The translations under genes and the position numbers were made by a program. Of a stretch of 64,000 bases of DNA, positions 1 through 64,000 are shown in pieces. The stretch spans positions 4,154,001 through 4,218,000 of the forward strand of contig NZ_CP013979.1 of the NCBI RefSeq assembly GCF_001660485.1, written 5' to 3'. The stretch comes from Agromyces aureus (GTDB taxonomy: Bacteria > Actinomycetota > Actinomycetes > Actinomycetales > Microbacteriaceae). Numbering within the stretch: position 1 is the first letter of the stretch; every line of letters starts with the position of its first letter. Below the pieces are notes generated by a model. The model saw only the letters and a list, made by a program, of their open reading frames with translations, ran no database searches and was not told where the DNA came from.

Positions 1-1
1 C

Positions 2-745
2 TGGTTCGTGATCGTCGGCGGCGCGATCATCCCGCTCGCCCTGCTCCTCACGTGGCAGTTGGTCTCGACGAGCGGGCTCGTGCCCGTCTCGATGCTGCCG
101 AGCCCCGAGATGGTGTGGCTCGCGGCCGTCGACCTCGCCCAGCGCGGGCTGCTCGGCCTCTACGTCGCGATCTCGACGCAGCGCGTGTTCATCGGCTTCG
201 CCGCCGGCGCGGCGATCGGCCTGCTGTTCGGCGCGGTCGTCGGCCTGTCGAAGCTCGGCGACATCCTGCTCTCGCCGACGCTCGGCGCGATCCGTGCGGT
301 GCCCTCGCTCGCGTGGGTTCCGCTGCTGATCCTCTGGTTCAAGATCGGCGAGGAATCGAAGATCATCCTCATCGCGATCGGGGCCTTCTTCCCGGTCTAC
401 ACGATCGTCGCCGCGGCGCTGCGGCACGTCGATCGTCAGCTCCTCGAGGCGGGGCGTGCGTTCGGCCTGCGCGGCATCCGCCTGTTCACCGCGGTGCAGC
501 TGCCCGCGGTCGTGCCCTCGGTCATCTCGGCGCTGCGCCTCGCGCTCGCCCAGGCCTGGCTCTTCCTCGTGGCCGCCGAGCTCATCGCGAGTTCGATGGG
601 CCTCGGCTTCCTGCTCGTCGACTCGGGCAACAACGGCCGCATCGACCGCATCTTCCTCGCGATCATCCTGCTCGCCGTGCTCGGCAAGCTCACCGACGCC
701 CTGATCGGCCTCTTCGAGCGCTGGGCGGTGCGCAAGTGGGCGTGA
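2..745 (+). CDS. ABC importer permease (SsuC/TauC type), N-terminus cut by window edge
   Basis: C-terminal 247 residues of an integral-membrane permease of the nitrate/sulfonate/taurine importer family (BPD_transp_1 fold). The frame is open to the left edge, so the true start and probably the partner ATPase and binding protein lie outside. Several hydrophobic helices are visible. The cytoplasmic EAA loop that docks on the ATPase sits near nt 445-510: EAGRAFGLRG followed by QLPAVVP. The TGA stop overlaps the GTG start of the acetyl-CoA synthetase gene by GTGA, so the two genes are translationally coupled. The transported substrate cannot be read from the sequence. Family assignment is firm. 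Confidence 0.88.
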   Translation, partial: WFVIVGGAIIPLALLLTWQLVSTSGLVPVSMLPSPEMVWLAAVDLAQRGLLGLYVAISTQRVFIGFAAGAAIGLLFGAVVGLSKLGDILLSPTLGAIRAVPSLAWVPLLILWFKIGEESKIILIAIGAFFPVYTIVAAALRHVDRQLLEAGRAFGLRGIRLFTAVQLPAVVPSVISALRLALAQAWLFLVAAELIASSMGLGFLLVDSGNNGRIDRIFLAIILLAVLGKLTDALIGLFERWAVRKWA

Positions 746-2799
746 CCGACGAAGCCGGCGCCCGGCCGACGATCTCCGGTCTCCTCGAGGAGCACCGGCG
801 CTTCCCCGCTCCCGACGCCTTCGCCGCGCAGGCGAACGTCACGGCTGCCGACGCCGACGCCCTCCGAGCGGCAGCGGACGCCGATCCGGTCGCGTTCTGG
901 GAGTCGCAGGCCGCGCGCCTCGACTGGGCCGAGCCGTGGCACACCGCCCACACGTGGCATCCGGCCCTCCCCACCGAACGGGCCGACGAGACCGGCGAGC
1001 TCAGCGTGCCGCGCGCCGAGTGGTTCGCCGGTGGGCGACTCAACGCGAGCGTGAACGCCGTCGACCGGCACGTCGCGGCCGGGCGAGGCGACAAGGTCGC
1101 GTTCCACTTCGAGGGCGAGCGCGGCGACCGTCGCTTGATCACCTACGCCGAGTTGCAGCGCGAGGTGGCGAAGGCCGCGCACGCGCTCACCGAGCTCGGC
1201 ATCGTCGCGGGCGACCGCGTCGTCGTCTACCTGCCCGTGCTGCTCGAGACGGTCATCGCGACGCTCGCGATCACGCGCATCGGCGCCGTGCACTCGCTCG
1301 TGTTCGGCGGCTTCTCGTCCGAGGCGCTGCGGTTCCGCGTCGAGGACACGAGGGCGAAGCTCGTCATCACGACCGACGGCCAGTTCCGCCGTGGCACGGC
1401 CGTGCCGGTGAAGGCGGCCGTCGACGAGGCCGTCGCGGGTGTGGCATCCGTCGAGCACGTGCTCGTGATCCGCCGCACGGGCGATGAGACCCCCGATCTG
1501 CCCTTCACGGCCGGGTGCGACGTCTGGTGGCACGAGGTCGTCGACCGCCAGCCCGACGTGCACGAGCCCGAGAGCTTCGACGCGGAGCATCCGCTGTTCA
1601 TCATCTACACGAGCGGCACGACCGGAAAGCCCAAGGGCCTCGTGCACACGACGGGCGGTTACCTCACGCACGTCGCGTACAGCTACTGGGCCGTCTTCGA
1701 CGCGAAGCCCGACGACGTCTACTGGTGCACGGCCGACCTCGCGTGGGTCACGGCGCACAGCTACGTGCACTACGGCCCACTGCTGACGGGCACGACGAGC
1801 GTGATCTACGAGGGCACGCCGAACACCCCGCACCCCGGCCGCCACTTCGAGATCATCGAGCGCTACGGCGTGACGACTTACTACACGGCGCCCACGCTCA
1901 TCCGCTCGCTCATGACCTGGTTCCCCGAGGGCGTTCCCGGCCCGGATGCCGGTGGCCACGACCTCTCCTCGATCCGCCTGCTCGGCTCGGTCGGCGAGGC
2001 GATCAACCCCGAGGCGTGGGTGTGGTTCCGTGAGCAGATCGGGGCGGATGCCGCACCCATCGTCGACACCTGGTGGCAGTCCGAGACGGGGGCCGCGGTC
2101 ATGGCGCCGCTGCCCGGCGTCTCGACGCTGAAGCCGGGTTCGTCGCTCCGCGCGCTGCCCGGGCTCACGACGCGCGTCGTCGACGAGCAGGGGGCGGATG
2201 TCGCAGCCGGCCATGGAGGTTACCTCGTCGTCGACGGCACCTGGCCGGGCATGGCGCGCACCGTGTGGGGCAACCCCGAGCGGTACCGCGACGCCTACTG
2301 GGCCCGCTTCGCCGACCGCGGATACTTCTTCTCGGGAGACGGCGCGAAGGTCGACGCCGACGGCGACATCTGGCTGCTCGGCCGCGTCGACGACGTCATC
2401 AACGTGTCGGGGCACCGGCTCTCGACCATCGAGATCGAGTCGGCGCTCGTCGCCCACGCCTCGGTCGGCGAGGCCGGGGTCGTCGGCGTCTCGGACGCGA
2501 CCACGGGCGAGTCGATCGTGGCGTTCGTCGTGGCATCCGACGCCCTGACCGGCACCGCGGAGCGATCGGATGCCGCGGCCGGGCGTGCTGCGGAACTGCG
2601 GGCGCACGTGGCCGCCGCCATCGGCCCGATCGCGAAACCGCGGGAGGTCGTGTTCGTCGCCGACCTGCCGAAGACCCGCTCGGGCAAGATCATGCGCCGC
2701 CTGCTCGTGGATCTCGCGGAGCGCCGCCCGCTCGGCGACGTGACCTCGCTGCAGGACGACCGCGTGCCCGGCGCGATCGCCGACGTGCTCGCCGGCTGA
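742..2799 (+). CDS. acs: Acetyl-CoA synthetase (AMP-forming)
   Basis: Activates acetate to acetyl-AMP and then acetyl-CoA in the cytoplasm. The protein has 685 residues, slightly longer than the usual ~650. Visible motifs: the adenylate-forming P-loop YTSGTTGKPKG at residues 289-299; WWQSETG at 444-450, whose tryptophan is typical of small-acyl (acetate) pockets; the hinge region GRVDDVINVSGHRLS; and the C-terminal PKTRSGK motif with catalytic Lys649, which is the acetylation site in known Acs enzymes. The GTG start at 742 overlaps the permease stop and removes an upstream out-of-context extension. Coupling to an SsuC-like permease is unusual; it could mean uptake of a carboxylate or simply a chance operon. 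Propionate use cannot be excluded. Confidence 0.92.
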   Translation: MTDEAGARPTISGLLEEHRRFPAPDAFAAQANVTAADADALRAAADADPVAFWESQAARLDWAEPWHTAHTWHPALPTERADETGELSVPRAEWFAGGRLNASVNAVDRHVAAGRGDKVAFHFEGERGDRRLITYAELQREVAKAAHALTELGIVAGDRVVVYLPVLLETVIATLAITRIGAVHSLVFGGFSSEALRFRVEDTRAKLVITTDGQFRRGTAVPVKAAVDEAVAGVASVEHVLVIRRTGDETPDLPFTAGCDVWWHEVVDRQPDVHEPESFDAEHPLFIIYTSGTTGKPKGLVHTTGGYLTHVAYSYWAVFDAKPDDVYWCTADLAWVTAHSYVHYGPLLTGTTSVIYEGTPNTPHPGRHFEIIERYGVTTYYTAPTLIRSLMTWFPEGVPGPDAGGHDLSSIRLLGSVGEAINPEAWVWFREQIGADAAPIVDTWWQSETGAAVMAPLPGVSTLKPGSSLRALPGLTTRVVDEQGADVAAGHGGYLVVDGTWPGMARTVWGNPERYRDAYWARFADRGYFFSGDGAKVDADGDIWLLGRVDDVINVSGHRLSTIEIESALVAHASVGEAGVVGVSDATTGESIVAFVVASDALTGTAERSDAAAGRAAELRAHVAAAIGPIAKPREVVFVADLPKTRSGKIMRRLLVDLAERRPLGDVTSLQDDRVPGAIADVLAG

Positions 2800-2930
2800 G
2801 CCCCAGCGGCCATGACCTCGCACGTCATCGCGTGACGTGCCGGCAGAACTCCCCATTGACGGCCGACGACCAGACCTGCCACGCTGCATTCCGGCGATCA
2901 CAGCCGCACCGACCGAGAAGGAACCCTGAA

Positions 2931-3236
2931 ATGTCTGACCTGCCTCCCGCCCCCGTTCCCCCCGCACAGCCCGTCGCGCCGGTCGCTGCCTCCGAGAAGT
3001 GGAACGTCCTGTCGATCGTCGGCTTCGTGCTGTCGATCATCGGCTTCAACGTCGTCGCCATCGTGCTCGGCTTCATCGGCCTCAACCAGGTCAAGAAGAC
3101 CGGCGAGCGCGGCCGCGGCCTCGCGATCGCCGCGATCATCATCGGCTTCGTGTCGATCGTGCTCGGCATCATCCTGACCATCGTGTTCTTCTCGGCCCTC
3201 GCCGCGACGGGCACGCTGACGGACACCTCGTACTGA
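2931..3236 (+). CDS. Small DUF4190 membrane protein
   Basis: A 101-residue protein. It has a Pro/Ala-rich cytoplasmic head (residues 1-22) followed by two hydrophobic helices, about residues 26-50 and 62-90, linked by a short basic loop (NQVKKTGERGRG). This is the layout of the DUF4190 family found across Actinobacteria, whose function is unknown. The AGAAGGA ribosome site 8-14 bases upstream supports the ATG at 2931. It is transcribed alone after acs and ends just before a strong hairpin terminator. Confidence 0.8.
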   Translation: MSDLPPAPVPPAQPVAPVAASEKWNVLSIVGFVLSIIGFNVVAIVLGFIGLNQVKKTGERGRGLAIAAIIIGFVSIVLGIILTIVFFSALAATGTLTDTSY

Positions 3237-3250
3237 GCCGTCCGCACGCA

Positions 3251-3285
3251 GAAGCCCCCGCCCGGCGCATCCGGGCGGGGGCTTC
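3251..3285 (+). terminator. Rho-independent terminator, 15-bp perfect stem
   Basis: Arms 3251-3265 (GAAGCCCCCGCCCGG) and 3271-3285 are perfect reverse complements around a 5-base loop. The hairpin lies between the convergent DUF4190 gene (+) and the drug exporter (-), so it can serve both. Confidence 0.85.
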
Positions 3286-3300
3286 GTCGTCTTCGCTTCG

Positions 3301-4803
3301 CTACGCGACGACCGCCGCCGCGCGCCGCCCCGAGGGCAGCAGCAGTCCGATGACCGCCGAGGCGAGCAGCACGGCCGCGCCGACGGCGACCGCGGGCTGG
3401 GCGCCCACCGTGTAGAGGTCGGGCACGAGTTCGCCGCCTGCCCCGGTGAACACGGCCGTCGAGACCGCGATGCCGAGTGCGACGCCGACCTCGCGGAGCA
3501 TCGAGTTCGTGCCGCTCGCCTTGGCGTGATCGACCGGCGCCATGGTCGCGAGCACCGCGGTGGCCGACGGCGCGAACACGAGGCCCATGCCGACGCCGGC
3601 CACGATGAACGGCACGACGTACGACGCGTACTCGACGCCGGGCTCGAGCAGGGTGGTCAGCCAGAACAGCGCCCCGCCGAGCAGCGCGAGTCCGGAGACG
3701 ATGAGCGTGCGGGTGCCGACGCGGGGCGCGAAGATGCCCGCGAGCGGTGCGACGACCATGGGTGCGAGGGTCCACGGCGACGTCTGCAGCGCCGCCTCGA
3801 ACGGGCTCGCGCCCTGCACGACCTGCAGGAACTGGATCAGGATGAAGATCGATCCGAACGCGCCGAAGCTGAAGCCGAAGCCCACGACGTTGGCCACCGA
3901 GAAGCTCCGGTCGCGGAACAGCCGCAGTGGCAGCAGGGGCGCCGAGGCGCGGGTCTCCCAGAACACGAAGGCGAGCAGCAGCGCACCGCCGCCGATCAGG
4001 CCCGCGAGCACCTCGGCGCTGTCCCAGCCCGCCTCGTTGCCGCGGACGATGCCGTAGACGAGTGCGAGCAGGCCGAGGCCCGAGAGCAGCAGGCCGACGA
4101 CGTCGGCGCGAAGGCGGGCGCCGAAGCTGTTCGGCAGCGCGAGCAGCGCCAGCAGCACCGAGACCACGCCGATCGGCACGTTGATCCAGAAGATCGCCTG
4201 CCACGACCAGCCCTCGATGACGGCGCCGCCGATGAGCGGGCCGACCGCGACCCCGAGGCCCGCAACGCCGCCCCAGATGCCGATCGCGAGCGGTCGACGG
4301 GCCAGCGAGACCGAGCCCGCGAGCAGCGTGAGCGAGAGCGGCATGATGGCGGCGGCGCCGAATCCCTGCGCGGCACGGGCCGCGATGAGTTGGCCGGGGT
4401 CGGTCGCGAGGGCCGCGAACGCGGAGCTCAGCGTGAACACCACGATGCCGATGACGAACACCGTGCGGCGCCCGTAGCGGTCGCCGAGCGCCACGGCCAT
4501 GAGGATCGTGCTCGCGAACGCCAACGTGTACGCGTTCATGAACCACTGCAGCTCTTCGACGGACGCCCCGAAGTCGGCGTGCAGCACGGGCAGCGCGTTC
4601 GTCATGACGAGGTTGTCGAGCGTCGCCATGAACATCGGCAGTGCCGAGGCGAGCAGCACGAGCCAGAGCGCGCGCGGGCGGCGGGCGGATGTCTCGGGGG
4701 CGCCCTCGGGCCCGCGGCCGGCAGGGTCGCCCGCGGTGCCGCGCGGCCCGCGCGCGGCATCCGTCGTCTGGTCTTGGATGGTCGGTTCGGCCGTGGTGGA
4801 CAT
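3301..4803 (-). CDS. MFS drug exporter, DHA2 (14-helix EmrB/QacA) family
   Basis: A 500-residue proton-coupled multidrug exporter in the inner membrane. After a ~45-residue hydrophilic, Gly/Pro/Arg-rich head, the first helix (LWLVLLASALPMFMATLDNLV) carries the DHA2-typical helix-1 Asp. Motif A appears as GDRYGRR, and the exporter motif C as GLGVAVGPLIGG in helix 5. About 14 hydrophobic segments follow. The ATG at 4803 is chosen because AAGGAGT sits 7 bases upstream on this strand. It is divergent from the TetR gene at 4883, with two operator-like palindromes between them, so ligand-induced derepression by that TetR protein is likely. The substrate is unknown. Confidence 0.9.
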   Translation of the reverse strand: MSTTAEPTIQDQTTDAARGPRGTAGDPAGRGPEGAPETSARRPRALWLVLLASALPMFMATLDNLVMTNALPVLHADFGASVEELQWFMNAYTLAFASTILMAVALGDRYGRRTVFVIGIVVFTLSSAFAALATDPGQLIAARAAQGFGAAAIMPLSLTLLAGSVSLARRPLAIGIWGGVAGLGVAVGPLIGGAVIEGWSWQAIFWINVPIGVVSVLLALLALPNSFGARLRADVVGLLLSGLGLLALVYGIVRGNEAGWDSAEVLAGLIGGGALLLAFVFWETRASAPLLPLRLFRDRSFSVANVVGFGFSFGAFGSIFILIQFLQVVQGASPFEAALQTSPWTLAPMVVAPLAGIFAPRVGTRTLIVSGLALLGGALFWLTTLLEPGVEYASYVVPFIVAGVGMGLVFAPSATAVLATMAPVDHAKASGTNSMLREVGVALGIAVSTAVFTGAGGELVPDLYTVGAQPAVAVGAAVLLASAVIGLLLPSGRRAAAVVA

Positions 4804-4831
4804 GGCGCGACTCCTTGGATTCGAGGTTGTT

Positions 4832-4882
4832 GTTATCGGATGATTACTTACGACTCTTGCACTGTAGTAATCGACTGATAAC
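4832..4882. promoter_or_regulatory. Paired TetR operator between exporter and regulator
   Basis: Two 17-base arms, 4832-4848 (GTTATCGGATGATTACT) and 4866-4882 (AGTAATCGACTGATAAC), form a near-perfect inverted repeat with a 17-base gap. Each arm is itself an imperfect palindrome of GTTATC/GATTAC type. This suggests two regulator dimers, one over each divergent promoter. Confidence 0.7.
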
Positions 4883-5521
4883 ATGTCAAGCATGAGTCCC
4901 GAAGCCGCCGAAGTCCTCGAAACCGCCGCCCCGGCGGGCCGCATGAGCGCCGCCGACCGCCGCGAGCAGATCCTCGTCGCGGCCACCGCGGTGTTCGGCG
5001 CGAAGACCTATGTCGGCACGACGACCGACGAGATCGCCCGAGCGGCAGGAGTCAGCCAGCCCTACGTCGTACGCCTCTTCGGCACGAAGCAGAAGCTCTA
5101 CATCGAGGTCATCCAGCGCGCCTACTCGCACCTGCTCGAGGCATTCGCGGCCGCGTTGCCCGGCCCCGTCGACGAACGCGCACCACGACTCGGCGCGGCC
5201 TACACGGGCCTGCTCGCCGAGCGCGGCATGCTGCCCGTCATCGCCGGATCGACGCAGATGGGCGGCGAGACCGAGATCGGCCAGGTCGCGCGCGACGGCT
5301 TCAGCAGCCTCTGGCACTTCATCCGTGTCGACGCCGGCTTCTCGGCCGATGAGACCCGGGGGTTCTTCGCCACCGGCATGCTCATCAACGCCGTCGTCGG
5401 CCTGCGCCTCACCGGCGACTACGGCACGGGCGTCAGCGCCACCGAGGTGCTCGACGAGTGCTTCCCCGACGCGCTCGAGAAGGTGCGCACGTTCCTGCCG
5501 AAGGTCGGCGAGCCCTGGTGA
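4883..5521 (+). CDS. TetR-family regulator of the adjacent exporter
   Basis: A 212-residue repressor. The N-terminal helix-turn-helix is at about residues 25-72, with the typical TTDEIARAAGVSQPYVVRLFGTKQKLYIEVI pattern spread over the recognition region (positions given, motif family TetR_N). The rest is the helical ligand/dimer domain. The first ATG (4883) directly abuts the right operator arm and has no Shine-Dalgarno sequence, so the mRNA may be leaderless; the ATG at 4892 is an alternative. It is divergent from the DHA2 exporter and most probably represses both genes. Confidence 0.87.
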   Translation: MSSMSPEAAEVLETAAPAGRMSAADRREQILVAATAVFGAKTYVGTTTDEIARAAGVSQPYVVRLFGTKQKLYIEVIQRAYSHLLEAFAAALPGPVDERAPRLGAAYTGLLAERGMLPVIAGSTQMGGETEIGQVARDGFSSLWHFIRVDAGFSADETRGFFATGMLINAVVGLRLTGDYGTGVSATEVLDECFPDALEKVRTFLPKVGEPW

Positions 5522-5531
5522 GGCGAGCGGC

Positions 5532-6323
5532 TCAGCGCAGCGCGCGGTAGAAGGCGCGCTCCGCGGGCGAGAGGTGCTCGGTCGCGTACGACAGCATCGT
5601 GCGCGGCATCCGCGGGGCGCACTCGTCGAGGAACCCCGTCAGCAGCTCGCGGTCGACGCGCTTGCCCGTCTCGCGCAGCATCCACCCGACGGCCTTGTGC
5701 ATGAGGTCCTCACGGTCATCGACCAGCGTCGGCGCGAGGCGCAGGATCGGCCCGGCGTCGCCCGCCTTGATGAACGCGAAGGTCGCGAGCACGGCGACGC
5801 GCCGTTCCCAGAGTGCATCGGATGCCGCGAGCTCGTCGAGCAGCGTCAGGTCGCCGTCACCGGCGCCCGGGCCTCCCGAGCGCAGGAACTCGCCGACCAG
5901 GTATTCGGCGGAGGTGTCGACGAGGTCCCAGTTGTTCACGTGCCCGGCTCGCACGGCGTCGAGGTAGGCCGCGTGGATCTCGGCCCGGGCCGCGTCGTCG
6001 CGCATACGCACCTTGCCCGCGGACTCGAACTGCCGCACCAGCACGATGAGGGCCGCGAGCCGATGCTCGTGCACCGGGCTCTCGAGCAGGGCGGATACCT
6101 CGGCGAGCGGCATCCGCTCGAAGCCCTTCACGATGGCCCGGGTCACCGGCACCCGCACGCCGACGAACACGTCGCCCTCGCCGTACTGGCCGGGGCCGGT
6201 CTTGAAGAACCGCTGCAGGAACTCGGCGTCGATCGGGTCGCCTGCGGCATCGATCGCCGCGGCGAGCGCGCCCGCCGTCTGCCCCGAGTCCTCGCGAGCC
6301 ACGATCGATCCGGCATCCTCCAT
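5532..6323 (-). CDS. AlkD-like DNA alkylation repair protein
   Basis: A 263-residue all-helical HEAT-repeat protein of the DNA alkylation repair family (AlkC/AlkD). These enzymes excise positively charged alkylated bases without base flipping. The family hallmark NNWDLVD at residues 130-136 carries the Trp and Asp that line the lesion site in characterised AlkD. RLAALIVLVRQ and KAVGWMLRETGK are typical HEAT helices. The start at 6323 (MEDAGS) gives a length near the family norm; longer upstream starts add an Arg-rich tail unlike the family. It ends 10 bases from the TetR gene (convergent). Confidence 0.85.
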   Translation of the reverse strand: MEDAGSIVAREDSGQTAGALAAAIDAAGDPIDAEFLQRFFKTGPGQYGEGDVFVGVRVPVTRAIVKGFERMPLAEVSALLESPVHEHRLAALIVLVRQFESAGKVRMRDDAARAEIHAAYLDAVRAGHVNNWDLVDTSAEYLVGEFLRSGGPGAGDGDLTLLDELAASDALWERRVAVLATFAFIKAGDAGPILRLAPTLVDDREDLMHKAVGWMLRETGKRVDRELLTGFLDECAPRMPRTMLSYATEHLSPAERAFYRALR

Positions 6324-9553: not shown

Positions 9554-10402
9554 GTCTCACTCACATCAAATGAAGAACTCTTGGTCGTGCCGAGCCGTCT
9601 GGGGGACCTCTCCGTGCGAGCGGTGGGCGCGGTCGACGGACACCCGACCGTGCTGTGGTCGTCGATGTTCGTCGACAGCCGCACCTGGGATCGCATGCTG
9701 CCGACGCTGCTCCGCAAGGCGCCCGACCGCAGCTACCTGCTGATCGACCCGCCCGGACTCGGGCGCAGCGAGGCGCTGCACCGCCGAAGCACGATCGCCG
9801 AGGCGGCCTCCGCCGCTCGCGACGCGCTCGACTCCCTCGCCGTACGGCAGCCCGTCGACTGGGTCGGCAACGCCTTCGGCGGTCACGTCGGCTACGAACT
9901 CGCGGCGCAGCCGGGCCTGCTTCGGTCGCTCGTCGCGATCAGCGCACCGGTCGAGCCGATCGCGCCCGCGCTTCGCCGGAAGATCCAGCTGCTGAAGCCG
10001 CTGCTGCAGGCGTTCGGCGCCGTCGGCCCGGTGCGCGCCGCGGTGATCGAGGCGATGCTGACGGATGCCTCGGCAGCCGACCCGGCGATCCTCGGCGTGG
10101 TGATCGAGAGCCTCGACCGGCCGTCGAGGGCCAGCATGGCCCTGGCCCTCCGCTCGTTCATCCTCGACCGGGTCGACGTGTCGTCGCTCCTGCCCCGCAT
10201 CGGCGTGCCGAGCCTCTACCTCGCGAGCGATGACCGCGGCGATTGGTCGCCCCACGATGCCGAACGTGCCGCCTCGCTCACCCCGAACGCACGAGCGCTG
10301 ACGATCGCCGGCGCCCGCACCCTGGTGCCGCTCGAGCAGCCCGACGCCGTCGCGCAGCAGCTGCTCGCGTTCTGGAGCGACCTCGCAACGAGTGACCGGT
10401 AG
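9548..10402 (+). CDS. Alpha/beta hydrolase-fold protein with Ala at the nucleophile position
   Basis: A 284-residue alpha/beta-hydrolase fold protein. RSYLLIDPPGLGRSE is the usual strand-4 Asp/Gly-Arg-Ser segment. At the nucleophile elbow the sequence reads VGNAFGGHVGYE, with Ala109 where Ser (GxSxG) or Asp is normal. The C-terminal acid/His region is also unclear (SDDRGDWSPHDA...TLVPLEQPD has no clear His). Either catalysis differs or it is a non-catalytic binder. It is divergent from, and probably controlled by, the TetR gene at 8891. The fold is secure; enzymatic activity is not. Confidence 0.8.
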   Translation: MSVSLTSNEELLVVPSRLGDLSVRAVGAVDGHPTVLWSSMFVDSRTWDRMLPTLLRKAPDRSYLLIDPPGLGRSEALHRRSTIAEAASAARDALDSLAVRQPVDWVGNAFGGHVGYELAAQPGLLRSLVAISAPVEPIAPALRRKIQLLKPLLQAFGAVGPVRAAVIEAMLTDASAADPAILGVVIESLDRPSRASMALALRSFILDRVDVSSLLPRIGVPSLYLASDDRGDWSPHDAERAASLTPNARALTIAGARTLVPLEQPDAVAQQLLAFWSDLATSDR

Positions 10403-11986: not shown

Positions 11987-12055
11987 CCGCGCGGAGCCGC
12001 CTGGCCTGGCCCGTTCGGGCACGATCGGCGCGATCGGGCGAGCGGATGCCGCGGC

Positions 12056-13411: not shown

Positions 13412-13611
13412 CGCGGGAACCGGCTCACCCGCCCATCCTCCGCCTGCGGCGTCCGCGCCGCCACCCGCCGAGGTCTCAAACCCCGCCACCGAAACCCGAG
13501 CGCGGTTCGGCCATCCGGATGCCGCGGGGTAGCATGCTGCCACCCCCACGCCCGTGGCACCAGGCGCACCCACGCCGCCGCGCGGCATCCGCTCGACCCG
13601 AAAGCACCCCC

Positions 13612-17664: not shown

Positions 17665-19095
17665 ATGAGCGCCACCGTTGCACCGCCCGTGATCGACGGG
17701 GTCGAGTGGGTGCGCCCGCGGCCCGACCGTCGCGCGTACCGCCACGACGTGATCCTCGCCCTCGTGCTCGCCGCCGCCACCGGGGCGAGCGTCGTGCTGT
17801 ACCGCATCACGGGCATGACCGAGAACGGCCCGTGGTGGGGCGCTGCACTCTGGGCGGTCGGCATGACGCTGCCGCTCGCGGCTCGCCGCCGGTGGCCCGA
17901 GGTCGTCGCGATCGTCGCCTCGGCGGTGTTCGTGGCGGGCTCGATGACCGGCGTGATCGAACTGCTCTTCTCCAACATCGCGCTCTTCATCGCCATCTAC
18001 ACCGTCGGCGCCTGGAGCCGCTCGCGGGTGAGGGCCAACCTCGTGCGCGGGGCGATCGTCATCTCCATGTTCGGCTGGCTGTTCTGGGGCCTCATCACCT
18101 CGTCGTTGGCGCAGGACTTCCTCCCCGAGCTCGACCGCGACGGACTGCTGTCGCCGTTCGTCGCCTACAGCCTCATCAACGTACTCACGAACCTGCTGTA
18201 CTTCGGCGGCGCGTGGTACTTCGGCGACACCGCCTACCGGTCGGCGCGGGCCAGGGCCGAGCTCGAGCAGCGCACCGCCGAGCTCGCGGCCGAGCGCGAA
18301 CGCACCAGGGTGCAGGCCGTCGCCCTCGAGCGGCTGCGCATCGCCCGCGAGCTGCACGACGTGGTCGCGCACCACGTGTCGGTGATCGGCGTGCAGGCGG
18401 GTGCCGCACGCCGGGTGCTCGCGAAGGATCCGGATGCCGCGGCCGCGGCGCTCTCGTCGATCGAGTCGAGCGCACGCGACGCCGTCGACGAACTGCACGG
18501 CCTGCTCGGCACGCTGCGCGGCGAAGCCGACACGGGTTCGATCGACGTGGCCCCCGGCATCGGTGACGACGGGCCGTTGACGGCCAGCACCTCGACGCGC
18601 TGCATCGAACGCATCGACGAGCTCGTCGCCGACAGCGCCACGAGCGGCCTGGCGGTGACCCTCTCCGTCGTCGGCGAGGCGCGCCCGGTCTCCGCGGTCG
18701 TCGACCTCAGCGCCTATCGCATCGCGCAGGAGGCGCTCACCAACGTTCGCAAGCACGCCGGGCCGTCGGCGACCACCGAGGTGCGAGTGCGGTGGGATGC
18801 CGACGCCGTCGAAGTCGAGGTGACGAACACGGGCACCGCGACCAGGGCGGCCGTCGGGCCGTCGACCGAGGCGGCCGGCTGGGGGGTCCGCGGTGCGGCC
18901 GGCGGCGGCAGCGCGGGCAGCGGCAGGAGCCCCGTCGCCGGCGGACATGGCGCGGCCGGCGGCGGACTCGGCCAGCTCGGCATGCGCGAGCGGGTGGGTG
19001 CGGCCGGCGGCACGCTCGAGGTGGGCCCACGGGCGCGGGGCGGGTACCTCGTGCGCGCACGCTTCCCGCTTCGTCGCGAGGGGGTCGCCTCGTGA
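17665..19095 (+). CDS. Sensor histidine kinase, NarL/DesK type
   Basis: A 476-residue membrane kinase. Six hydrophobic segments fill residues ~28-190. A coiled dimer helix (RARAELEQRTAELAAERERT) leads to the HisKA_3 box RIARELHDVVAHHVS, with phospho-acceptor His231. The ATPase domain has the N-box region IAQEALTNVRKHA and the G-box GGLGQLGMRERV. Between them is an unusually long, Gly/Ala-rich ATP lid (~45 residues, nt 18840-18965). The TGA overlaps the response regulator GTG (GTGA), so the pair is translationally coupled. Signal unknown; many small sensing-domain kinases of this class detect membrane or envelope stress. Confidence 0.9.
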   Translation: MSATVAPPVIDGVEWVRPRPDRRAYRHDVILALVLAAATGASVVLYRITGMTENGPWWGAALWAVGMTLPLAARRRWPEVVAIVASAVFVAGSMTGVIELLFSNIALFIAIYTVGAWSRSRVRANLVRGAIVISMFGWLFWGLITSSLAQDFLPELDRDGLLSPFVAYSLINVLTNLLYFGGAWYFGDTAYRSARARAELEQRTAELAAERERTRVQAVALERLRIARELHDVVAHHVSVIGVQAGAARRVLAKDPDAAAAALSSIESSARDAVDELHGLLGTLRGEADTGSIDVAPGIGDDGPLTASTSTRCIERIDELVADSATSGLAVTLSVVGEARPVSAVVDLSAYRIAQEALTNVRKHAGPSATTEVRVRWDADAVEVEVTNTGTATRAAVGPSTEAAGWGVRGAAGGGSAGSGRSPVAGGHGAAGGGLGQLGMRERVGAAGGTLEVGPRARGGYLVRARFPLRREGVAS

Positions 19096-19844
19096 GCATC
19101 CGCGTGCTCGTCGTCGACGACCAGAGCCTCGTCCGCGCCGGCTTCCGCACGATCCTCGATTCCGAGGACGGCATCGAGGTCGTCGGCGAGGCGTCCGACG
19201 GTGCGGCGGCGATCACCCAGGTCGCGGCCCTCCAGCCCGACGTCGTGTGCATGGACGTGCAGATGCCCGGCATGGACGGCCTCGAGGCCACCAGGCGCAT
19301 CACAGCCGACGCGACCACCTCCGCCGCGGTGCTCGTGCTCACGACGTTCAACCGCGAGGACTACCTCTTCGAGGCCCTCGAGGCCGGCGCGAGCGGATTC
19401 CTGCTGAAGAACTCGAGCCCCGAGCAACTCATCGAGGCCGTGCAGGTCGTCGCCCGCGGCGACGCGCTGCTCTCACCCGACGTCACGCGTCGGGTCATCG
19501 AGGCCGTCGCGAGCCGAGCCGAGCGGATGCCGCGCGCCGGCGAGGTTCCCGAAACAGGCGCCGGCTCTGCCCTCGCGTCCGAAACCGGCGCACGCAGCTC
19601 ATCGGTGGCGGCGATGCCGGTTTCCGGCTCGCCCGAGCTCGATTCGCTGACGGATCGCGAACGCGAGGTGCTCGAGTTCCTCGCCGAGGGCATCTCGAAC
19701 GCCGAGATCGCCCAGCGCATGTGGGTGGGCGAGGCCACCGTGAAGACGCACGTTTCGAAGGTGCTCATGAAGCTCGGGCTGCGCGACCGCGTGCACGCCG
19801 TCGTCTACGCCTACGAGCACGGCATCGTGCGCCCCGGAAGCTGA
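19092..19844 (+). CDS. NarL/FixJ-type response regulator
   Basis: A 250-residue transcriptional regulator paired with the kinase just upstream. The receiver domain (1-120) has the acidic pair in VVDDQ, phospho-acceptor Asp55 in VCMDVQMPGMDG, and Lys in FLLKNS. The LuxR-type HTH covers about 182-245 (LTDREREVLEFLAEGISNAEIA...). The linker between them is longer than usual (~50 residues, EVPETGAGSALASETGARSS region) and contains a GAGCGGATGCCGCG word in its DNA. GTG at 19092 is the natural start through coupling to the kinase stop. The target promoters are not evident. Confidence 0.92.
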   Translation: MSIRVLVVDDQSLVRAGFRTILDSEDGIEVVGEASDGAAAITQVAALQPDVVCMDVQMPGMDGLEATRRITADATTSAAVLVLTTFNREDYLFEALEAGASGFLLKNSSPEQLIEAVQVVARGDALLSPDVTRRVIEAVASRAERMPRAGEVPETGAGSALASETGARSSSVAAMPVSGSPELDSLTDREREVLEFLAEGISNAEIAQRMWVGEATVKTHVSKVLMKLGLRDRVHAVVYAYEHGIVRPGS

Positions 19845-23688: not shown

Positions 23689-23714
23689 CGGATGCCGCGG
23701 CCCCGCGGCATCCG
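23689..23714. repeat. Hairpin CGGATGCCGCGG-CC-CCGCGGCATCCG upstream of ABC ATPase
   Basis: Arms 23689-23700 (CGGATGCCGCGG) and 23703-23714 are perfect complements separated by CC. The hairpin ends 12 bases before the ABC ATPase start and may influence its 5' leader. It is one of several hairpins in the window with CGGATGCC/GGCATCCG outer stems. Confidence 0.7.
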
Positions 23715-25737: not shown

Positions 25738-25769
25738 CGGATGCCGCGGGCGGGAGCCCGCGGCATCCG
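25738..25769 (+). terminator. Terminator hairpin with GGATGCC outer stem
   Basis: Arms 25738-25751 (CGGATGCCGCGGGC) and 25756-25769 are perfect complements with a 4-base loop. It follows the ABC permease. It shares both flanks (GCGAGCGGATGCC... and ...GGCATCCGTGCGTCTG) with the hairpin at 27843 while the inner stem differs. Confidence 0.8.
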
Positions 25770-27842: not shown

Positions 27843-27876
27843 CGGATGCCCCGGGGCCGGTGCCCCGGGGCATCCG
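27843..27876 (+). terminator. Terminator hairpin with GGATGCC outer stem
   Basis: Arms 27843-27857 (CGGATGCCCCGGGGC) and 27862-27876 are perfect complements around a CGGT loop. It follows the phosphodiesterase. The flanks are nearly the same as those of the hairpin at 25738, but the inner stem has changed on both sides and remains paired. Confidence 0.82.
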
Positions 27877-32869: not shown

Positions 32870-32989
32870 TGTCCGGCGGTGTCCTACTCTCCCACAGGGT
32901 CCCCCCTGCAGTACCATCGGCGCTGCGAGTCTTAGCTTCCGGGTTCGGAATGTGTCCGGGCGTTTCCCTCGCGCTATGGCCGCCGAAAC
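32870..32989 (-). rRNA. rrf: 5S ribosomal RNA
   Basis: On the minus strand the sequence begins GTTTCGGCGGCCATAGCG and ends GTAGGACACCGCCGGACAA, so the two ends pair to form helix I. The internal CCGAACCCGGAAGCTAAG is the universal 5S loop B/C region. Length is about 120 bases, and ends are placed to within a few bases. Confidence 0.93.
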
Positions 32990-33227
32990 TCTTGCCACAA
33001 CCGGCACCATCCCTGGGGGGTGGTGGGTGTGTAGTCTCGGTGAACCTCATCGGTGCGTGTGCTGGTGCCGGCCCGGTGGTCCGGGGGCGCCTGCTCAGGC
33101 ACGATGGGTGTCGTGTGTTGAGTTGTGTGTTTGTGTTTCCGTCTGTTGGGAACCACAGAGTGGACGCGAGTCATCAGGCCACACACACGCCTTTTACGTG
33201 AATGAACACTTTCGTGTGTGTGTAGTG

Positions 33228-38334
<5,107 letters not shown>

Positions 38335-41347: not shown

Positions 41348-41430
41348 CGAGGCGCCCTCCTCTCAGGGTTCGTTCGACGGGCGGCGGAGGTCGCGCGCCG
41401 GCGCCGGCCGCGGCATCCCTCACCCTTCGA

Positions 41431-41462
41431 TTGCGAAGTATTCGATATCGAAATATTAGCAA
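41431..41462. promoter_or_regulatory. MarR operator palindrome
   Basis: Centred on the perfect 12-mer TTCGATATCGAA (41441-41452), with TTGC (41431) and GCAA (41459) placed symmetrically. 12 of the 16 pairs over 32 bases match. It sits between the divergent MFS and MarR genes. Confidence 0.75.
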
Positions 41463-41489
41463 CCGAAGGAGGCGTGCGAGAATTCCCGT

Positions 41490-41996
41490 ATGGCGAAACG
41501 GACCTCGAGCGCGCAGGAGCTGCACCGTCGCGCCGTCGCGACCTACGTCAAGGCCGGCGGCGAGGAGTCGGTGCAGCGCGTGATCACCGCCGTGCAGAGC
41601 CTCACCAAGAAGCTCGACCAGTGGTACGCGAGGCAGCTCGTCGACCTCGAGGTCACGGGCGGCGAGTGGGCCGTGCTCACCTCGCTCGCCAAGGCCGGCG
41701 AGGCGCTCACGCCCAGCCAGCTCGCCGAGCTCACGAACGTCGCGCCGTCGTCGATGACGCACCGCATCGACAAGCTCGTCGAGCGCGGTCTCGTCGAACG
41801 CACGCCCGACTCCGAGAACCGCACGCGCATCTTCGTGAGCCTCACGGATGCCGGTTGGCAGCTGTTCAGCGTCGCGATCCGCGGGTCGGATGTCGTCGAG
41901 TCCGACGTGCTGCAGGACCTCAGCGACGACGAGCGCGGCGAGCTCGCGCGGCTGCTCGAGGTCGTCATCGCGCGACTCGACGACATCGACGCATAG
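41490..41996 (+). CDS. MarR-family regulator
   Basis: A 168-residue winged-helix dimer. The HTH/wing is about residues 58-112: ALTPSQLAELTNVAPSSMTHRIDKLVERGLVER, with wing residues TPDSENRTRIFVSLT. Helices at both ends form the dimer domain. The only in-frame start is ATG 41490, although the AAGGAGG-like sequence lies about 17 bases upstream, farther than normal. It is divergent from the MFS exporter and most likely represses it and itself through the TTCGATATCGAA site. Confidence 0.88.
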   Translation: MAKRTSSAQELHRRAVATYVKAGGEESVQRVITAVQSLTKKLDQWYARQLVDLEVTGGEWAVLTSLAKAGEALTPSQLAELTNVAPSSMTHRIDKLVERGLVERTPDSENRTRIFVSLTDAGWQLFSVAIRGSDVVESDVLQDLSDDERGELARLLEVVIARLDDIDA

Positions 41997-42036
41997 GGTA
42001 CTGCCGGTGCCGGCCCGGATCAGGACCGGACGAGAC

Positions 42037-42549
42037 TCACCTGGCCCAGCGGACCACCTCGAGCGGTCCCTCATCGGACGTCGGCGGTTCGAACCTCTCG
42101 AAGTACTCGGTGGCCGACTGTTCGGTGAGCGGCCAATCGTCGGCCGACCTGCCGTGTCGGTCACCGACACGACTCAGGATGGTCACGAGACTCGTCGCGA
42201 GGTACGCGGTCTCGGGCACGATGCCCTGGGGTGCGAGCACCGCGCGGTACTCATCGCGTTGTCGCCGGAACCAGAATCCGAAATCGAGCACCACATCGCT
42301 CCCCGCGGCGACCTGGCGCAGCAAGCGCGCCTTCAGGTCTACCGCCACCTCGGCGACCACGTCGGCGGAGGGCATCGTCGTGATCCCGCGATCCCAGAAC
42401 TCCACCTCGAATGACAATCGCGTCCAACCCTCGCGCTCCAGGCGCTTGGCGTAGGTGGTCTTTCCGGCACCACCCGGCCCGCACATCATCACGACGCGGG
42501 GTCGGAGAACCGTGTTCTGTGTCACCGGGCCGAGGGTACGCTCCGCCAC
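42037..42549 (-). CDS. P-loop ATP-binding protein (AAA_33 / small-molecule kinase-like)
   Basis: A 170-residue P-loop NTPase. Walker A is GPGGAGKTT at about residues 24-32, followed by YAKRLEREGWTRLSFE. VVLDFGFWFRRQRDEYR is the Walker B/LID-type region, in which Arg residues would close over ATP. This is the AAA_33/ATP-binding zeta-toxin-like kinase group, used for phosphorylating small metabolites, antibiotics or sugars. No antitoxin-like gene is adjacent. The GTG at 42549 has no good ribosome site; a GTG near 42528 is possible. The substrate is unknown. Confidence 0.75.
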   Translation of the reverse strand: MAERTLGPVTQNTVLRPRVVMMCGPGGAGKTTYAKRLEREGWTRLSFEVEFWDRGITTMPSADVVAEVAVDLKARLLRQVAAGSDVVLDFGFWFRRQRDEYRAVLAPQGIVPETAYLATSLVTILSRVGDRHGRSADDWPLTEQSATEYFERFEPPTSDEGPLEVVRWAR

Positions 42550-42616
42550 TGACGTCGAGATGTCGAACGCTCCGCCCGTCGCCGGTCCGGATCGGGTCGA
42601 ACGTGATCCGCAAGCC

Positions 42617-43666
42617 CTACGGCTGGAGCATGACCTTGACGGCGCGGCGCTCGTCCATGGCGGCGTACGCCTCGGCCGCCTCGACGAGGGGCAGCTTCAG
42701 GTCGAACACGCGGCCCGGCTCGATCGCACCCGAGAGCACGTCGGGCAGCAGCTCCTCGATGTAGCCGCGCACGGGGGCGACGCCGCCGTTCACACCGACA
42801 TTGCGTCCGAACAACGCGCGCACGGGCAGCTCGGGCCCGCCGTTCGGCACGCCGACGTATCCGACCATGCCGCCGGGGCGGGCCGAGCGGATCGCCTGGT
42901 CCATCGACTCCTTGGTGCCCACGCACTCGAGCACGCGGTCGGCTCCGATGCCCTCGGTGAGCGCCTTCACGGCGGCGACGCCGTCGTCGCCGCGCTCGGC
43001 GACGATGTGGGTGGCGCCGAATGCGCGCGCGAGCTCCTGCCGATCGGCGTGCCGCGACATCGCGATGATCGTGGTCGCCCCGAGGCGCTTCGCGGCGATG
43101 ACCGCGCAGAGCCCGACGGCGCCGTCGCCGACGACCACGACGGAATCGCCCGGTTGCACGCCCGCCGAGACGGCCGCGTGGTGGCCGGTGCCCATGACGT
43201 CGCTGAGCGTCAGGAGTCCGGGCACCATGTCGGCGGTGACCTCCTCGCGGACCGGAACCAGCGTGCCGTCGGCGAGGGGCACTCGCACGCGTTCGCCCTG
43301 ACCGGCATCCGCGAACCCGCCGAGGCGGTCGTCGCTGCCCCACCACCCGCCGTTCAGGCACGACGTGCTGACGCCGTTGCGGCAGTTCACGCACGTGTTG
43401 TCGCACACGTAGAACGGCGCGATCACGAAGTCGCCGACCTCGATGAGGCTCACGTCGTCGCCGACGGCCTCGACCACGCCTACGAACTCGTGGCCGATGC
43501 GATGCGGCTCGTCGGTGGGCGTGACCCCGCGGTACGGCCAGAGGTCGGAACCGCAGACGCACGCGGCCACGACTCGTACGATCGCGTCGCCTCCGGTTGA
43601 GAGCACGGGGTCGGGCACGGTCTCGACGCGGATGTCGCGGGCGGCGTGGATCACGGTGGCGAGCAT
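42617..43666 (-). CDS. Zinc-dependent alcohol dehydrogenase (MDR family)
   Basis: A 349-residue medium-chain dehydrogenase. The catalytic zinc ligands are visible in CVCGSDLWPY and RIGHEFVGVV (Cys, His, Glu). The structural zinc lobe has four Cys in CDNTCVNCRNGVSTSC. The nucleotide-binding motif GDGAVGLCAVIAAKRLGA follows. FEVGDFVIAPF and the C-terminal KVMLQP are family-typical. It probably oxidises an alcohol, polyol or aldehyde adduct using NAD(P). It lies downstream of the carboxylesterase in the same direction (47-base gap), a possible ester-to-alcohol pathway. Confidence 0.9.
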   Translation of the reverse strand: MLATVIHAARDIRVETVPDPVLSTGGDAIVRVVAACVCGSDLWPYRGVTPTDEPHRIGHEFVGVVEAVGDDVSLIEVGDFVIAPFYVCDNTCVNCRNGVSTSCLNGGWWGSDDRLGGFADAGQGERVRVPLADGTLVPVREEVTADMVPGLLTLSDVMGTGHHAAVSAGVQPGDSVVVVGDGAVGLCAVIAAKRLGATTIIAMSRHADRQELARAFGATHIVAERGDDGVAAVKALTEGIGADRVLECVGTKESMDQAIRSARPGGMVGYVGVPNGGPELPVRALFGRNVGVNGGVAPVRGYIEELLPDVLSGAIEPGRVFDLKLPLVEAAEAYAAMDERRAVKVMLQP

Positions 43667-43713
43667 GGGTCGAGCCTACGCTCGGGGTCGAGCGCTGGGG
43701 AGGTGCCGGCGGC

Positions 43714-45270
43714 TCAGACGTGGGGGACGAACTCCTGCCAGGCGAGGCGCTTCTCGCGGCGCGGGTCGGCCTCGACCCGGTCGGTCGCGTCGAAGACGAG
43801 GGTGCGCCGCATCCGCTCGTCGTATCGCGGCCAGCCGTCGAGGGGCGCCCCGGACACGGCGAACGCCGCCCAGTGCGCCTGCATGCGTCGTCCGACCCGG
43901 CGGTAGAGGCGACGCCCGCCGAGCAGTGTGAGCCCTGCGCCGGTCAGCGTGTCGAACTTCTCGAACAGGGCGAACAGCTCGAGGCCGTGGGTCGCGTCGA
44001 GACCCATGAGCCGCGGCATCCGCGGAGCCGCATCGAACCGGTAGCAGCAGACCGGCGCGTACCGCGAGTGCCGTTCGGCGACCTTGACCGACGGGAACCA
44101 GAACGTGAAGTCGCCCGCGAAGTCGGCGGCCGGGCGCCGTTCGGGCAGGCCAGGATACTGGCGCTTGATCGCCTTGCGGGACTTCTTGCGCGTGTTCGCG
44201 AAGATCGCGCGGATGCGCGGCTTCGTCGTGGGCAGGATGCTGATGCGCCCCACGAAGAGCGACCCTTCGCGGTCGTTCGTGCCGATGATGAGCGGGATGC
44301 GGTGCGCGGTGCCGTCGCGGAACGCGTCGAGCGGGCGAACCGGCAGGAACTCGCCGTCGATGACGGGAGCGAGGCTGATGGTGCCGGGGTTCTCGTCGGG
44401 AGTGCGCTGCGCCAGCAGGGTCGTCGCCTCGGCGAGCACGCTCGGGTCGGCCGCGAGCAGCATCGCCGCGGCGTCCTCTCCGGAATCGGTCTCGAGGTCG
44501 TCGTCGTCGACCAGGCGGCTGAGCGTGCTCACGTACTCGGCGGCCCAGCGGGCGGCGACCTCGGGCAGGTAGACGGCGTTCGCGGGCGAGCTCTGCGCGA
44601 TCGCCCGCGAGAAGAGTCCCTCGGCCGCGGGCACGGCCATGAGCGTCGTGACCGAGTTCGCCCCCGACGACTCGCCGAAGAGCGTGACGCGGTCGGGGTC
44701 GCCCCCGAACGCGGCGATGTTGCGCCGCACCCACTCGAGCGCGGCGACCTGGTCGCGGAGCCCGACATTGACGTCGAACGGATGCCGCGGGCCGGCGTAC
44801 GCGCGGAAGTCCAGCCAGCCGAGGGCCCCGAGCCGATAGTTCAGGCTCACGTAGACGACGCCGTGCCGCCGCACGAGCGTCTCGCCCTGTCGCGGGTACT
44901 CGTCGGAGGATCCGACGCTGTACGCGCCGCCGTGCAGGAACACCATCACCGGACGCGACCCGCCGCCCGCGGCATCCGGTGCCGTGATGTTCAGGCGCAG
45001 GCAGTCCTCACTGCGCGGGAGTCGCGGATTGGCGCCGATGAACTGGCCCCGGCGATTCTGAGGTGCGACCGGGCCGAAGTCGGCCGCGTCGCGCACGCCC
45101 GCCCAGGCGTCGGGCGCGACCGGCGCGCGGAACCGGCGATCGCCGCCGGTGGGGCCCGCGTACGGGATGCCGCGCCACATGCGCAGGCCCCGCCGACGGA
45201 CCCCCCGCACCGCACCGGCGTCGGTCTCGACGATCAGGTCGTCGGTGCGGACGCCACCCTCCACGAGCAT
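43714..45270 (-). CDS. Type B carboxylesterase/lipase
   Basis: A 518-residue esterase without an obvious signal peptide. The oxyanion loop is FLHGGAYSVGSS and the nucleophile Ser201 lies in GESSG of VTLFGESSGANSV. EDCLRLNI is the second carboxylesterase-B signature. DATHGLELF probably holds the catalytic His, and the acid lies between. The enzyme hydrolyses carboxylic esters in the cytoplasm. It is divergent from an MFS gene and followed by an alcohol dehydrogenase; the trio could take up, hydrolyse and oxidise one ester substrate (inference). Confidence 0.9.
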   Translation of the reverse strand: MLVEGGVRTDDLIVETDAGAVRGVRRRGLRMWRGIPYAGPTGGDRRFRAPVAPDAWAGVRDAADFGPVAPQNRRGQFIGANPRLPRSEDCLRLNITAPDAAGGGSRPVMVFLHGGAYSVGSSDEYPRQGETLVRRHGVVYVSLNYRLGALGWLDFRAYAGPRHPFDVNVGLRDQVAALEWVRRNIAAFGGDPDRVTLFGESSGANSVTTLMAVPAAEGLFSRAIAQSSPANAVYLPEVAARWAAEYVSTLSRLVDDDDLETDSGEDAAAMLLAADPSVLAEATTLLAQRTPDENPGTISLAPVIDGEFLPVRPLDAFRDGTAHRIPLIIGTNDREGSLFVGRISILPTTKPRIRAIFANTRKKSRKAIKRQYPGLPERRPAADFAGDFTFWFPSVKVAERHSRYAPVCCYRFDAAPRMPRLMGLDATHGLELFALFEKFDTLTGAGLTLLGGRRLYRRVGRRMQAHWAAFAVSGAPLDGWPRYDERMRRTLVFDATDRVEADPRREKRLAWQEFVPHV

Positions 45271-57927: not shown

Positions 57928-57931
57928 CCGG

Positions 57932-61951: not shown

Positions 61952-61982
61952 CGGTTCCCCCCTCAGTCAGTGTTTCTGCAGA

Positions 61983-63655: not shown

Positions 63656-63681
63656 CCTCGAGCGGTCGTACCGCACGAACC

Positions 63682-63716
63682 CGAGAGGGCCGGATGCCAC
63701 GCATCCGGCCCTCTCG
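63682..63716. terminator. Bidirectional terminator, 16-bp perfect stem
   Basis: Arms 63682-63697 (CGAGAGGGCCGGATGC) and 63701-63716 are perfectly complementary around a 3-base loop. It lies between convergent genes ending at 63655 and 63732. The stem again contains the CGGATGC word. Confidence 0.88.
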
Positions 63717-63731
63717 TCATGTCGACGTTCG

Positions 63732-64000
63732 TCACTCGACCGGCTGAGCCGCGACCTCCGCCTCGGCGTCGCTCGAACCGCCCGCCGTGCGGAGGAACAC
63801 GATGATCCAGCTGAAGATCAGGCAGGCCGCCACGAGCTCGACGGCTGTGAGGTTGTAGTACCCGGTCGCGAAGAACACCGCGACGACCGCGATCACCGCG
63901 AGGTATGCGAAGCCGAGCAGCACGAACACGCGCGGAATCGTGCGGATCAGGCGCGGCAACCGCACCACGATGATCGCGAAGCAGATCGCCATGCCGGTCG
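63732..64000 (-). CDS. Membrane protein, 5' end at or beyond window edge
   Basis: The visible ~88 residues contain two long hydrophobic helices (RVFVLLGFAYLAVIAVVAVFFATG and LVAACLIFSWIIVFLR) and an acidic C-terminal tail. An ATG at 63992 is possible, but with only eight upstream bases visible no ribosome site can be judged, so the gene may be cut. I cannot assign it to a family. Confidence 0.6.
   Translation of the reverse strand, partial: TGMAICFAIIVVRLPRLIRTIPRVFVLLGFAYLAVIAVVAVFFATGYYNLTAVELVAACLIFSWIIVFLRTAGGSSDAEAEVAAQPVE

Follow-up and report, generated by a model that had tools for sequence, protein, structure and literature searches.

GGATGCC, a genome-wide iterated word of Agromyces aureus, as a candidate DNA-uptake-type sequence in Microbacteriaceae

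The word GGATGCC in the window and along the chromosome

We analysed a stretch of 64,000 nucleotides (the window; bases 4,154,001-4,218,000) of the one-contig, 4,373,124-bp genome of the soil bacterium Agromyces aureus, in which the seven-letter word GGATGCC, or its complement GGCATCC, is over-used throughout. The window holds 90 copies, compared with 13.2 (standard deviation (sd) 3.4, maximum 23) in 100 dinucleotide shuffles, an excess larger than the reader behind the initial annotation thought. In the first 10.4 kb, for which at least 15 copies had been reported, 17 were found; the positions quoted were right to 0-2 bases, apart from one given as 10070 that really lies at 10063. The copies are spread across positions 1..64000 and occur, as had been noted, on both strands (49 on +, 41 on -) and in coding and non-coding DNA. 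By our own gene caller 70 copies are coding and the other 20 fall outside the called genes, two of the latter (36303 and 36417) lying in or at the edge of a 23S rRNA gene because the caller ignores rRNA. Leaving aside AT-rich words with one or a few occurrences, GGATGCC is the strongest 7-mer among those listed for the window.

The signal is specific to the exact word. Eighteen of its 21 single-mismatch words stand at 0-1.5x expectation in the window; the raised ones are GGATGTC (3.9x), GGATACC (2.8x, 5 copies) and GGATTCC (2.4x, 5 copies), and GGACGCC is not depleted (19 copies vs 20.9 expected). The full Agromyces consensus is an 11-mer, CGGATGCCGCG, outside which the flanks carry little information. 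It occurs 34 times in the window (18 on +, 16 on -), for example at 12043..12053 (+). An extended form, GAGCGGATGCCGCG, had been described as recurring and as present even in a response-regulator linker near 19520, and both observations hold. There are 257 copies in the genome and six in the window, one at 19521..19534 (+) inside a LuxR-type response regulator gene (19092-19844), in the linker between the receiver and helix-turn-helix domains; the others start at 12040, 25735 and 53218 (+) and at 13581 and 17637 (-).

Genome-wide, CGGATGCCGCG is present in 2,126 copies (1,053 on one strand, 1,073 on the other) and its reversed control in 24 (13 + 11). We combined the window with 20 stretches of 20 kb, spaced at 200-kb intervals, into a sample of 464 kb, about 11% of the genome. 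The 20 stretches contain 489 copies of GGATGCC, with 95 expected under a second-order model and at least 9 in every stretch, and the density in the chromosome is about 1.2 per kb. Gene calls for the 464 kb came from the same caller (396 genes, 84% coding, rRNA counted as outside). By these calls GGATGCC has a density of 1.20 per kb in genes and 1.47 outside, and CGGATGCCGCG, at 0.41 and 0.86 per kb, is about twice as dense between genes.

Within genes the word is not a by-product of codon choice. The 464 kb contain 466 coding copies of GGATGCC, compared with 158.8 (sd 8.6, maximum 181) in 100 synonymous-codon shuffles, and 159 coding copies of CGGATGCCGCG, compared with 8.9 (sd 2.5, maximum 15). 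The word is written with codons that are otherwise uncommon, as the initial annotation had proposed. GAT makes up 15% of Asp codons overall and 157 of the 235 that are preceded by G and followed by GCC, where the word results; GCA makes up 6.6% of Ala codons overall and 126 of the 185 that are preceded by G and followed by TCC. Enrichment thus extends beyond codon and dinucleotide bias, and that it acts at the DNA level, not the protein or codon level, is well supported. The earlier suggestion that the word is selected or propagated as DNA is borne out by the synonymous shuffles and the sharpness of the exact word, and by the retained synonymous codons and dialects described below.

Neighbouring copies in inverted orientation (+ then -) lie within 60 bases of each other 23 times in the 464 kb. 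Twelve of these pairs are intergenic; 11 of the twelve follow the end of one gene or more, and seven sit where genes converge. In the window, a pair CGGATGCCGCGG...CCGCGGCATCCG at 23689..23714, 17 bases from start to start, lies between divergent called genes, and terminator-like hairpins are formed by pairs at 25738..25769 and 27843..27876, 27 and 11 bases past the ends of called genes. Judging from their sequence, the intergenic pairs are terminator-like hairpins made from the word, with a putative role in termination. Inverted pairs of the DNA uptake sequence (DUS) and the uptake signal sequence (USS) are known as terminators.

The strand and spacing of the copies bear on two proposals in which the word serves the chromosome itself. 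The sampled stretches are balanced (247 vs 242), and we rejected the idea of long one-strand runs. If the terminus is assumed to lie half way round from dnaA (base 406), 260 copies in the 464 kb fall on the leading and 319 on the lagging strand (p=0.016), which does not amount to polarity of the kind seen in Chi or in FtsK-orienting polar sequences (KOPS); the small surplus on the lagging strand may reflect that genes carry the word more often in antisense (283 copies) than on their own strand (183). The KOPS- or Chi-like role first suggested is therefore not upheld in its simple form, and RecC (PF04257) was found in 0 of 29 family genomes. A Chi-like recombination signal could instead be read by an AdnAB-type helicase-nuclease whose specificity drifts between lineages. 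Chi words are likewise short, over-used, lineage-specific and non-palindromic, and PDDEXK_1 nuclease domains occur in 31 of 31 genomes, mostly in two adjoining frames of about 1,050-1,150 aa, as in AdnAB. These genes are, however, equally present in two genomes of other families that do not carry the word, intergenic inverted pairs are unexpected for a polar signal, and AdnAB is not known to respond to Chi. Together with the lack of polarity and of RecC, this makes a Chi-like signal rather improbable. Slightly less probable still is that the word is bound by an abundant protein of the nucleoid, or one that organises the chromosome, and is selected in its own right. An even spread over the chromosome, on both strands and in coding and non-coding DNA, would suit it; about 1.2 copies per kb amid genes, spacing that appears random (coefficient of variation 1.08), the absence of polarity and the rapid change of the word between genera would not, and no candidate protein was identified, none having been searched for.

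A GC dip to 0.59-0.60 at 32-40 kb of the window is due to an rRNA operon (5S, 23S, 16S) at 32871-38334 on the - strand, and we rejected this low-GC stretch as a foreign island. A plasmid search with window DNA returned, among the matches listed, only conserved genes such as clpB, and a viral-contig search with one window protein found no relative.

Retention and turnover of the word between species

Synonymous codons are kept more often inside the word than outside it. We compared 22 Agromyces loci around comEC, a set whose cells share ancestry and are not independent. Where Asp is conserved, GAT stayed GAT in 63/74 cases inside the word vs 301/600 outside at 85% identity or more, in 155/262 vs 522/1,584 at 80-85%, and in 808/1,571 vs 2,479/9,571 below 80%. 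Where Ala is conserved, GCA was kept in 44/52 vs 196/619, 102/167 vs 274/1,678 and 379/896 vs 1,620/9,430 cases over the same three ranges. For the word as a whole the outcome is mixed: it was identical in 35% of aligned cells, which exceeds the 18% for variants at positions 3-4 but not the values for some other control words, given below.

The nearest relative in the ComEC-neighbour comparison is Agromyces allii (84% identity). Between the two genomes, compared in both directions, 28 of 40 aligned sites are identical, 9 are one base off and 3 are two or three bases off, with 3 more sites unaligned; none of the 40 contains an internal gap. Over all Agromyces pairs with at least 80% identity, 1,078 of 1,716 sites align and 39 of the 1,078 contain an internal gap. 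Word sites turn over by substitution, and the commonest single-mismatch form at orthologous sites is GGACGCC (42/168).

Two further explanations concern the origin of the word. One is mutation, with no function attached, through biased repair or a C-to-T hotspot that depends on context and turns GGACGCC into GGATGCC. The prominence of GGACGCC at orthologous sites speaks for this, and GGATGTC, GGATACC and GGATTCC are raised too. A simple C-to-T hotspot, however, does not explain the word, since GGACGCC is undepleted; synonymous-codon shuffles fall short of the count, codons within the word are better retained than their synonymous equivalents elsewhere, not worse, and the dialect words described below lie more than one change apart from each other. 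We regard a mutational origin as very improbable. The other is a drifting repeat, which the initial annotation had listed, or a repetitive extragenic palindromic (REP)-like element; to this we give next to no weight. A relative, G104 (G numbers are our genome labels), does have a real REP-like repeat, a longer unit than GGATGCC. Its words TATCGAGA, GAGTAGCC and ACCAGCAT stand in only a few kinds of flank (6-15 for 19-34 copies), whereas 238 distinct flanks occur among the 489 copies of GGATGCC. Little flank information beyond the 11-mer, an exact word whose neighbours mostly stand near 1x, and turnover by substitution with internal gaps in 0 of 40 and 39 of 1,078 sites also argue against a repeat.

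Range of the word and its dialects in Microbacteriaceae

All 60 Agromyces genomes searched hold CGGATGCCGCG above its reversed control, in 89 to 2,553 copies. Conservation across related genera, a check proposed at the outset, extends to 190 of 199 Microbacteriaceae genomes, with counts outside Agromyces running from none or chance level up to hundreds and with dialects in sister lineages. In an order-wide draw of 248 genomes (20 families), 18 Microbacteriaceae hold 28-2,126 copies, and 230 genomes of 19 other families hold 0-44, one having 66. The latter mostly lie near their reversed controls; some, chiefly in two families (f4 and f7), are several-fold above but reach only tens. Within the order sampled, strong enrichment is confined to Microbacteriaceae.

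Other members of the family over-use other words. We scanned 7- and 8-mers in 40-80 kb each of 29 other genomes (20 kb for G138) and in 79 named loci. GGATGCG was found in G067, Zimmermannella, Herbiconiux, Aurantimicrobium and some Leifsonia and Pseudoclavibacter; GGATGTC together with GGATGCC (GGATGYC) in G147; GGATGCCT in Agromyces G041; and GGATGC[CT] in Microcella. Further words are GCAGGATC/AGGATCC in G145 and G063, CAGGATC in Frondihabitans, a Leucobacter-type CAGGATC in G073 (57 vs 22.6 expected) and L. zeae (19 vs 5.6), GGAGGCG in G114 and, more weakly, G094, and ATCGGTG in the small genome G069. A synonymous test with 60 shuffles per set covered 15 sets, not among them Leucobacter-type CAGGATC, Microcella, Pseudoclavibacter and Rhodoglobus. 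In this test the main dialect words reached z 7-20, GGAGGCG in G094 being weak (z 4-7); in Frondihabitans CAGGATC was raised (z 8.3) and AGGATCC was not (z 1.2). GGATGCC itself is at chance in three dialect sets (18 vs 18.2 in G145, 6 vs 8.9 in Zimmermannella, 7 vs 7.5 in Herbiconiux).

A word was called in 49 of the 79 named loci (39 GGATGCC, 7 GGATGCG, 2 CAGGATC, 1 GGATGCT). The other 30 include many Leifsonia and Cryobacterium, 1 of 2 Microbacterium and 1 of 21 Agromyces, and since a named locus covers only about 20 kb, a missed word there is weak evidence. The k-mer scans gave no clear word in the family genomes G083, G089, G104, G127, G110, G109/Plantibacter, G075, G092, G221, G072, G118 and G126, nor in the three members of other families scanned (G304, G258 and an Arthrobacter). 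On a ComEC tree (99 rows, 64 labelled), at least 12 word changes are needed, words often follow clades and GGATGCC is the widespread state; it is a quick tree with 16 open forks and some long branches. Ribosome-binding sites were rejected as the origin of GGAGGCG and CAGGAGC, each of which has 0-2 copies at such places, and CGAGCAG and AGCAGCA, high in genomes with and without a word, were by judgement set aside as codon-related.

Dialects also occur in the cyanobacterial word HIP1, a sharp, genome-wide iterated word that some lineages replace with alternatives, each reportedly with a matching methyltransferase (Elhai 2015, PMC4390886). GGATGCC could likewise be made and kept by a sequence-specific DNA methyltransferase and methylation-linked repair, and 27 of 29 family genomes do encode a CcrM/RsrI-like methyltransferase (E<=1.3e-40), an enzyme absent from two genomes of other families. 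Unlike HIP1, GGATGCC is no palindrome, as its complement GGCATCC differs from it, and the methyltransferases examined appear not to follow the word. The inter-motif region of the CcrM/RsrI-like enzyme (PF01555; 20 aligned of 28 family genomes with a match) is nearly the same across dialects and in genomes with no clear word; on these 20 genomes we rejected the enzyme as the reader, since it fails to track the dialect. C5 methyltransferases (PF00145) are sporadic (13 of 31 genomes): of the 16 word-bearing genomes 6 have one and 10 lack it. A HIP1-like origin is thus unlikely, if still worth some weight, and the role as a methylation target listed in the initial annotation finds no support in these two families. 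To summarise the alternatives, neither KOPS nor RecBCD-Chi finds support, nor does a drifting repeat or a shared methyltransferase from either of the families examined; HIP-like creation, a Chi-like signal read by AdnAB and an architectural protein remain as rivals.

The A. aureus CcrM/RsrI-like enzyme is a beta-class methyltransferase of about 290 aa (match at genome 299952-300695), possibly a family-wide orphan enzyme.

Competence genes and a possible role in DNA uptake

The word is exact, clade-specific and non-polar, forms hairpin pairs, is replaced along the tree and occurs beside com and pilus genes, and in these respects it most resembles DUS and USS. Among the roles that the initial annotation had offered, an uptake-type sequence would fit best. 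To our knowledge, uptake words with dialects are established only in Neisseriaceae and Pasteurellaceae. We judge the chances evenly divided on whether GGATGCC is a lineage-specific, genome-wide iterated, DNA-uptake-sequence-like word read by the competence machinery. In such a system, a component of the competence apparatus (ComEA/ComEC with a type IVa (T4a) or Tad/Flp pilus) would prefer DNA that carries the word. Imported and recombined alleles would carry it more often, and the word would therefore accumulate, through uptake-biased drive, selection for exchange with kin, or both. Drift in the recognition specificity would lead a genome slowly to swap its word and so give rise to dialects across Microbacteriaceae. 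That the reader is the uptake machinery and that transformation caused the accumulation is what we infer. A broader statement, to which we lean slightly less, is that the word marks self DNA for a sequence-specific DNA-handling machine of this high-GC Gram-positive family, either uptake or an undescribed recombination or repair reader, and that drift rewrites genomes into dialects (GGATGCC, GGATGCG, GGATGYC, CAGGATC, GGAGGCG, ATCGGTG) that may set gene-flow barriers between Microbacteriaceae genera.

The A. aureus genome has candidate parts for uptake. comEA (SLBB and HhH domains) adjoins comEC, and both are intact; ComEA and ComEC score below the NCBIfam equivalog/subfamily cut-offs, and ComEC passes the Pfam cut-off. 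Next to rpoBC, at genome 3446001-3458265, lies a T4a-pilus-like operon. It encodes a PilT-family ATPase that passes the cut-off, a PilB-like ATPase that narrowly misses it (633 of 676 bits) and a pilin bearing the N-methylation motif; putative PilC, PilD, PilM, PilN/O and additional pilins were assigned by us from the sequence. In the actinobacterium Micrococcus luteus, the transformation apparatus consists of a Tad pilus and ComEA/ComEC (PMC4322843).

Does the word follow these genes? ComEC was rejected as a discriminator, being nearly universal: 79 of the 80 family genomes have it, whether they carry the word or not. Among 31 genomes, a strong PilB-type match (E<1e-130) was found in 12 of 16 word-bearing genomes and in 4 of the 13 family genomes that lack a clear word; one of these 13 (G073) later gave a weak word. 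The 60 Agromyces genomes comprise 8 with a PilB-class ATPase, 37 with a weaker T2SSE class (E about 1e-66) and 15 with neither, meaning no T4a or Tad-class ATPase at E<1e-60, a threshold fixed before the run. In G030, the only case of the weaker class looked at, the strongest pilus-ATPase match is a Tad/Flp locus. Median CGGATGCCGCG densities are 315, 314 and 125 per Mb, respectively. The 45 genomes with a T4a or Tad-class ATPase have a median of 314 per Mb vs 125 in the 15 without (p=0.003), and the weaker class alone also differs from those 15 (p=0.001).

Several observations weigh against an uptake role. First, the association with competence and pilus genes has exceptions: ComEC is present also in genomes without a clear word, as is a PilB-type ATPase in the four just mentioned, and the word-bearing G041, G008, G069 and G116 do not have one. 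PilB genomes alone do not differ in density from the 15 with neither class (p=0.32), and the density statistics ignore kinship and include among the 15 'neither' genomes one that is 77% complete. Agromyces G039 has 2,002 copies with no pilus ATPase at the threshold, G040, G006 and G035 have PilB and only 126-321 copies, and pilus type differs among Agromyces that share one word. Second, the whole-word identity of 35% does not exceed the 41% of other words with one mismatch or the 47% of the reversed word. Third, we looked for a gene-end bias of the word and found none, and genes of atypical composition are not poorer in it (1.34 per kb in the least typical quarter). Finally, an uptake preference is putative in every word-bearing member.

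Compared with known uptake words, GGATGCC shows both likenesses and differences. Like the DUS of Neisseriaceae (Frye 2013, PMC3630211), which is present family-wide in about 1,000-6,000 exact copies per genome, it comes in lineage variants that keep a common core, some relatives have no word at all, and the genome studied here, that of A. aureus, has type IV pilus and com genes. It differs in that sequence and phylum are unrelated, counts vary more (89-2,553 in one genus), the farthest words (GGAGGCG, ATCGGTG) share little core, and the hosts are monoderm, some with Tad/Flp instead of T4a pili. The USS of Pasteurellaceae (PMC2346458) is likewise non-palindromic, found on both strands and commoner in genes in one orientation; it is another word in another phylum and has a gene-end bias that GGATGCC does not show. 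The actinobacterial Tad/Flp and ComEA/ComEC set of M. luteus is present in part of the Microbacteriaceae genomes, but M. luteus belongs to another family, and the main text of that paper (PMC4322843) contains neither 'uptake sequence' nor 'sequence-specific'. In the open-licence literature searched, not exhaustively, we found no description of the word or of uptake sequences in Microbacteriaceae.

If the uptake reading is true, GGATGCC would be a third, unrelated case of an uptake word, in Actinobacteria, and would show that words of this kind have arisen more than once. It would allow predictions of the Microbacteriaceae that can be transformed and of the tag needed, provide a well-sequenced environmental family for testing molecular drive against selection, and bear on the purpose of HIP1-type words. 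Irrespective of function, a signal found at about 1.2 copies per kb in the A. aureus chromosome and shared by its genus stands without a description in the literature searched.

Phages provide a comparison outside the chromosome. In four of five Microbacterium phages GGATGCC stands at 0.6-1.6x expectation (observed/expected 16/12.9 in Min1, 6/10.0 in SanaSana, 10/10.4 in Quenya and 16/10.1 in Abigail), which counts for an uptake role; three of the five are related Dismasviruses. The fifth, Efeko (17.5 kb), has 19 copies vs 3.7 expected (5x), with a host genus that bears the word, and this counts against it; its genome includes a single complete 11-mer, alongside many further high words peculiar to Efeko. 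The Min1 record also carries, at 40945-44810 near one end, purL-like (FGAM synthase II) and fatty-acid-desaturase genes that are unusual for a phage and possibly represent host DNA within the record.

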